DNA from: Bacilli bacterium
Lineage (GTDB): Bacteria; Bacillota_I; Bacilli_A; RFN20; CAG-826
Reading direction: 5' to 3'
NCBI GenBank assembly: GCA_024695235.1
Contig: JAILIP010000003.1
Span: 1-33,582 of the forward strand
Length of the DNA: 33,582 nt
Every line of letters begins with the position of its first letter. Within the stretch, counting starts at the first letter, position 1. Shown in pieces: positions 16,019 through 16,836 of the stretch. A program made the translations under genes and the position numbers. The notes beneath the pieces were generated by a model. That model did no database searches, had not been told where the DNA came from, and saw only the letters and a list, made by a program, of their open reading frames with translations.

Positions 16019-16558
16019 ATGGAACTAAAAGGAAGTAGAACCGAAAAGAATCTCCAAGCAGCATTTGCTGGAGAATCCCAAGCTAGAAATAAGTATACTT
16101 ATTTTGCTAGCAAAGCTAAAAAGGAAGGTTATGAACAAATAGCCGCTATCTTCTTAGAGACAGCTGAAAACGAAAAAGAACACGCTAAAATGTGGTTCAA
16201 ACACCTTAATGGTGGAGAAATCTCATCAACTGCTGAAAACTTAAAAGCAGCTGCCGAAGGTGAAAACTTTGAATGGACAGACATGTACAAAGAATTCGCT
16301 AAAGTTGCTCGTGAAGAAGGATTCGATCAAATCGCTTTTGAATTCGAAGCAGTCGGTAAGATTGAAAAAGAACACGAAGAAAGATATCTCAAGCTTCTTG
16401 AAAGCGTCAAAGAAGGCAAAGTCTTCATCGCTGAAGATGTTGTCGTTTGGAAGTGCCGTAACTGTGGTCACATTCACGTTGGCAAATTTGCCCCAGAAAT
16501 GTGCCCAGTTTGCAAACATCCAAAAGCATACTTTGAACTGCGTGCTAAAAACTATTAA
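16019..16558 (+). CDS. rbr: Rubrerythrin
   Basis: This 179-residue protein reduces hydrogen peroxide in anaerobes. The N-terminal ferritin-like four-helix domain has the diiron ligands in [25 protein letters not shown] and the second pair [14 protein letters not shown]. The C-terminal rubredoxin-like knuckle is CRNC (C146, C149) with CPVC. The length is slightly short of the ~190 norm but complete. AAAAGGAG precedes the ATG. It is the second gene of a two-gene unit; no clear terminator follows before the tRNA promoter. Electron donors (rubredoxin or NADH route) are not in the window. Confidence 0.95.
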
Positions 16559-16717: not shown

Positions 16718-16793
16718 GGCCCGGTAGCTCAGCTGGTAGAGCGGCGGACTGAAAATCCGTACGTCGCCGGATCATCCCCGGCCTGGGCCACCA
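16718..16793 (+). tRNA. tRNA-Phe (GAA) with non-canonical T-loop
   Basis: Acceptor GGCCCGG/CTGGGCC, D-arm GCTC/GAGC, anticodon loop CTGAAAA (GAA), T-stem GCCGG/CCGGC and encoded CCA all fit; total 76 nt. The T-loop reads ATCATCC in place of the near-universal TTCRANN. The T54-A58 pair is thus exchanged for A54-T58 and G57 is A. It lies 6 nt after tRNA-Asp in the same transcript. Confidence 0.88.
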
Positions 16794-16803
16794 TTGATAA
16801 AAT

Positions 16804-16830
16804 ATCCTTGATGAAAATCAGGGATTTTTT
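16804..16830 (+). terminator. Terminator of tRNA unit
   Basis: ATCCTTGAT (16804-16812) pairs with ATCAGGGAT (16817-16825) around GAAA, then six T. Confidence 0.85.
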
Positions 16831-16836
16831 GTTGAG

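Follow-up and report, generated by a model that had tools for sequence, protein, structure and literature searches.

A Bacilli tRNA-Phe with A54 and T58 in place of the T54-A58 pair: a probable compensated change of the elbow

The tRNA-Phe gene in the 33,582 nt stretch of Bacilli DNA analysed here (the window) carries the T-loop ATCATCC. Judged from its sequence and from that of its relatives, the gene probably encodes a working, apparently sole tRNA-Phe of a gut-type bacterium, with an elbow altered by a compensated swap of T54-A58 for A54-T58. T54-A58, a near-universal pair, counts as a constant element of the tRNA fold, and TTCRA is the canonical T-loop consensus, with any purine at position 57 and a variable position 59. 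From this consensus ATCATCC departs in A54 and T58 only, and with these two bases it falls outside the definition of a canonical T-loop by T54 and A58. The first-pass annotation of this DNA had rightly named A54 and T58 as replaced and the T54-A58 pair as absent, but its inclusion of A57 and C59 did not hold, an allowed purine and a variable position. A54 and T58 preclude both the modification m5U54 and the standard T54-A58 pair. The arms are normal, as had been described, and so is the tRNA-Asp in tandem (Table 1): the T-stem pairs fully, the predicted fold is the standard cloverleaf, and the GAA anticodon, A73 and the CCA end are present. A slid T-stem helix (GGA/TCC), permitted by ATCATCC, was rejected, being broken by the Deinococcales loop ATCATGC; the fold prediction gave the standard 7-nt loop.

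Table 1 Features of the tRNA-Asp/tRNA-Phe locus in the window
Feature	Position	Strand	Basis
Rubrerythrin gene, 5' of Asp-Phe	16019..16558	+	Pfam Rubrerythrin 3e-26
tRNA-Asp(GTC), normal TTCGA T-loop	16636..16711	+	ARAGORN and Rfam; 6 nt 5' of tRNA-Phe
tRNA-Phe(GAA), encoded CCA	16718..16793	+	ARAGORN and Rfam RF00005, 61 bits (gathering 29)
D-loop G18 G19, canonical partners of U55 and C56, kept	16735..16736	+	sequence
T-arm GCCGG-ATCATCC-CCGGC, all stem pairs formed	16766..16782	+	hairpin -7.9 kcal/mol, 7-nt loop
T-stem strands GCCGG / CCGGC	16766-16770 / 16778-16782	+	sequence
T-loop ATCATCC, positions 54-60	16771..16777	+	sequence; same class in relatives
Probable intrinsic terminator	16804..16831	+	ATCCTTGAT-GAAA-ATCAGGGAT followed by a T run, read from sequence

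A loss of the position-57 stack and of the elbow contacts to G18/G19 had also been proposed. Neither was borne out: the gene keeps T55, C56, a purine at position 57, the G53-C61 pair, G18 and G19, and all relatives with a loop of the ATCRT type have R57 as well. Since U55, C56, R57, G18 and G19 are kept, the outer face of the elbow (G19-C56) survives.

It is highly improbable that the loop reflects a mistake in sequencing or assembly, or that the gene is a pseudogene with a canonical tRNA-Phe located elsewhere in the genome. The first-pass annotation had considered that TTCGA might be found at these bases and had proposed a comparison with relatives, which revealed that the relatives with this gene mostly lack TTCGA there and that most species of the genus share the loop class ATC[AG]T[CT]C. 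Eighteen genomes of the genus, that of the window included, have ATCATCC, ATCGTCC or ATCATTC; 17 of the 18 other members with a detected tRNA-Phe share the class, the exception being G013 with TTCAATT. The relatives are represented by assemblies, mostly metagenomic, and those named are Bacilli, many from the rumen and the horse gut, including Candidatus Fiminaster equi. A rubrerythrin gene lies directly upstream of the Asp-Phe tandem in 20 or more relatives with canonical and non-canonical loops alike; this shared gene order marks the tRNA-Phe genes of the relatives as orthologues, in which the loop was exchanged in situ. Chance or a sequencing slip is excluded, as assemblies made independently for most species of the genus, and for other genera, have ATC[AG]T[CT]C at the orthologous locus. 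Dozens of independent assemblies show this loop, all stems are intact with compensatory changes, the variants are limited to two loop classes and a canonical copy was not found, so signs of a pseudo-tRNA are absent. On the comparison of these loci the ATCATCC loop is real, neither an error nor a decaying copy.

tRNA-Phe was not detected in six congeners (G002, G004, G011, G014, G022, G023) in searches with the anticodon pattern, the neighbouring tRNA-Asp, a tRNA-Phe covariance model and the 5' half of the gene, in three of them also by reading all tRNAs. Short BLAST matches limited to the 5' half were tRNA-Lys. An intron or extreme divergence was rejected as explanation: in G004 the contig ends within the rubrerythrin anchor, and the other five assemblies lack this gene, hence the locus is unassembled rather than shown to be lost. 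The missing or cut locus in these six assemblies is probably an assembly problem.

The host assembly of 0.99 Mb is 69.6 % complete, which favours a pseudogene insofar as the missing part could hold a second tRNA-Phe. None was found in the assembled genome, against the suggestion that a second canonical tRNA-Phe would mark this gene as a decaying copy. Thirty-six distinct tRNAs of the host were read, one for Phe and 35 others, all with T54/A58. The tRNA-Pro anticodon is AGG (A34) in the window's genome and GGG in the relatives G022 and G023. Against a pseudogene stand sole copies elsewhere: near-complete Bacilli (90-99 %) have one tRNA-Phe per genome in a DNA search (E <= 0.001), and an Aeriscardovia genome (G060) with 45 tRNAs covering all 20 amino acids has a sole tRNA-Phe with ATCGTTC, every other tRNA being T54/A58. 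A tRNA-Leu of this genome flagged as odd was an end-offset artefact, with TTCGA visibly present. The restriction of the 54/58 change to Phe refers to the genomes whose full tRNA sets were read.

A survey of 279 genomes of the order, with a pattern that required only a base other than T at position 54, G53 and C61, matched in 46 genomes; all tRNAs among the matches had ATC[AG]T[CT]C or CGCGC[TA]C, and neither intermediates such as ATCRA nor random decay were found in the 279 genomes. A second match in G030, at C20, was no tRNA. The CGCGC[TA]C loop belongs to a second altered tRNA-Phe of related Bacilli, in which A18 replaces G18. All 32 named ATCRT genomes have G18, all 21 named CGCGC genomes A18. 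Position 18 normally contacts U55, and in the CGCGC type U55 is changed to G alongside G18 to A (18/55 A/G), while positions 54/58 are C/C; C56 and G19 are unchanged throughout the compared set. A matched change of the tertiary partners 18 and 55 is what compensation predicts, and the elbow contacts thus appear to change in matched sets. Against a compensated swap it counts that C54/C58 of the CGCGC type suggests no obvious pair, and that the genomes are nearly all metagenome assemblies, the host's being incomplete. Among the CGCGC loci (L047, L094, L095, L183-L233) the main form of this tRNA-Phe has the same 76 nt in many that differ in spacers, terminators, flanks and tRNA-Asp. A tRNA-Phe of the CGCGC type was also observed in G042, a member of a different family of the order (L226/L417), as a candidate for horizontal transfer.

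On the PheS tree the three loop states require at least five changes, and the ATCRT genomes, taken together with the unknown-loop genomes nesting inside and without G013, do not form one clade (p-AU 9e-5). The tRNA-Phe genes were also out of step with their neighbours: in CGCGC pairs with rubrerythrins 60-75 % identical, tRNA-Phe was identical in 63 %, with tRNA-Asp differing by about 24 nt, while some pairs with rubrerythrins 90-95 % identical and identical tRNA-Asp had tRNA-Phe genes differing by about 8 nt. This pattern suggests that either the tRNA gene itself was replaced horizontally or the whole molecule is under strong constraint. One possible, though doubtful, cause is an attacker or user of the T-arm specific to tRNA-Phe, i.e., a tRNA-cleaving toxin, a defense nuclease or an integrating element with its attB in the T-arm, with the variant genes spreading horizontally or by gene replacement. 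Such an agent would name a cause and is compatible with a compensated elbow. It would account for changes in Phe only, patchy within the genus and in two states without intermediates, for CGCGC tRNA-Phe genes 100 % identical across loci with differing flanks and tRNA-Asp, for the divergence out of step with rubrerythrin and tRNA-Asp, and for the scattered ATCRT genomes on the PheS tree. However, no candidate attacker was found: neither T-arm was present on viral contigs, where the exact T-arm was absent and four pattern matches included no tRNA, and the five genes tested downstream of the tRNA in the window have no integrase-like domain.

Stacking is the means by which the elbow is recognised by T-boxes, RNase P and the 23S L1 stalk alike (PMC4810234). 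Of 13 ATCRT genomes tested, 12, that of the window among them, have a pheS T-box with full stem I and UUC specifier, with hits below the gathering score counted. Stem I docks on the elbow, and its retention is a further argument against the elbow loss proposed earlier. With an elbow read by stacking and the T-box kept, the ATCRT tRNA probably still presents its elbow in the normal way. The T-box was also present in all five canonical family members, in G028 as the core only, its contig starting there. No phe T-box was found upstream of pheS in three CGCGC genomes (G027, G029, G186; L304, L299, L433:17500-17920). The CGCGC elbow may, on these three genomes, be unsuited to the T-box. A clean split of T-boxes by T-loop was a threshold effect, as the ATCRT genomes have T-boxes below the gathering score. 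A co-evolution of the distal loop of stem I with the tRNA was also discarded, the distal sequence being identical in the canonical G013 and its ATCRT congeners. The one ATCRT genome without a T-box, G007, has a near-identical relative with one, G015; in the leader upstream of its pheS (L311) an unrelated, transposon-like sequence occupies the place of the T-box, which seems to have been lost through an insertion. For G182, a canonical sister of the CGCGC genome G186, pheS was not found in the sampled sequence. The absence in the three CGCGC genomes, against presence in the canonical and ATCRT genomes, would fit a relaxed constraint, in which the T-loop became free to drift once an elbow-binding partner, for instance the phe T-box, was lost. 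We regard this as quite unlikely, since ATCRT genomes, among them that of the window, retain the T-box, two discrete loop classes are seen instead of drift, and ribosome and RNase P still use the elbow. Somewhat better, but still unlikely, is a co-evolution with PheRS, in which the loop drifted along with an enzyme reading U59 and using its coiled coil. It would explain the change in Phe only; the bacterial Phe determinants include U20, U45 and U59 (PMC9976931), and the N-terminal coiled coil of PheRS is involved in tRNA binding (PMC3275996). This explanation is disfavoured because the PheS of the canonical G013 has, by eye, no fixed coiled-coil difference from its ATCRT congeners; moreover, the ATCRT loop is found with widely diverged PheRS in several genera and phyla.

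When 84,980 prokaryote species were scanned for tRNA-Phe with a base other than T at position 54, C56, R57 and Y58, 56 places matched: Bacilli, three Deinococcales, six Aeriscardovia, one Pirellulaceae and one chance match, the last in an Acetobacteraceae sequence (L201) that is not a tRNA. Outside the Bacilli the loops are ATCATGC in Deinococcales, ATCGTTC in Aeriscardovia and ATCATTC in Pirellulaceae; T58 is present in all ATCRT members. One Deinococcales genome also has a tRNA array with a divergent tRNA-Phe with canonical T-loop, so the variant is not the sole tRNA-Phe there. The array observed in G059 (L385, G059:C92:1-6000) is dense, with at least 21 tRNA genes, and the Asp-linked tRNA-Phe of this genome has ATCATGC. 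Between the four ATCRT groups the tRNA-Phe genes have 10-20 differences over 73 nt, which fits an independent origin better than recent transfer. The occurrence of ATCRT in four unrelated groups points to convergent evolution, with the independence of the occurrences deduced from these distances.

In the compensated elbow A54 and U58 would pair, as their joint change suggests, probably in a flipped Hoogsteen-type version of the T54-A58 trans pair. The flipped pair would still close the loop on G53-C61, with U55 and C56 available for docking on G18/G19, and a tRNA-Phe with ATCRT would be charged and used normally. Related genera have a sister solution, in which two contacts are altered jointly: 54/58 become C/C and 18/55 become A/G. 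The ATCRT tRNA-Phe, a presumably essential elongator tRNA, can be seen as a natural experiment on what the elbow needs, the pair having apparently been exchanged several times, in each case in tRNA-Phe and with matched partner changes. It bears on whether m5U54 and pseudouridine 55 can be dispensed with and on how altered elbows are accommodated by T-boxes, RNase P and the ribosome, and it hints at a Phe-specific selective force. More speculatively, tRNA-Phe of at least four bacterial phyla might be under a recurring, Phe-specific pressure to abandon T54-A58, with only two coordinated solutions, the flipped A54-U58 or A18/G55 with C54/C58; this would reveal alternative elbow architectures and an agent that tells tRNA-Phe by its T-loop.

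Targeted searches of the open-access literature returned no ATCRT or CGCGC T-loops, an earlier notice elsewhere being possible, and the searched passages of reviews on non-canonical tRNAs and the elbow do not mention them. The gene resembles a bacterial elongator tRNA-Phe in its cloverleaf, GAA anticodon, A73, CCA, G18/G19, U55, C56, R57 and the tandem with tRNA-Asp, but positions 54 and 58 are exchanged. A54-A58 occurs in eukaryotic initiator tRNA-Met and AGC-tRNA-Ala (PMC7566577, PMC7912444), and according to PMC7566577 bacterial and archaeal tRNAs do not show the unusual pairs that it describes. Those tRNAs share with the present one the A54, a non-canonical 54-58 pair and the restriction to a tRNA type, however they keep A58, whereas here U58 occurs, in bacteria and in tRNA-Phe. 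tRNA-Pyl and type II mitochondrial tRNAs lack G18G19/T-psi-C (PMC7609411) and are functional despite departures from conserved nucleotides of the D- and T-loops; in the tRNA-Phe, by comparison, the cloverleaf geometry and most elbow nucleotides are intact, and only matched contact pairs are exchanged.
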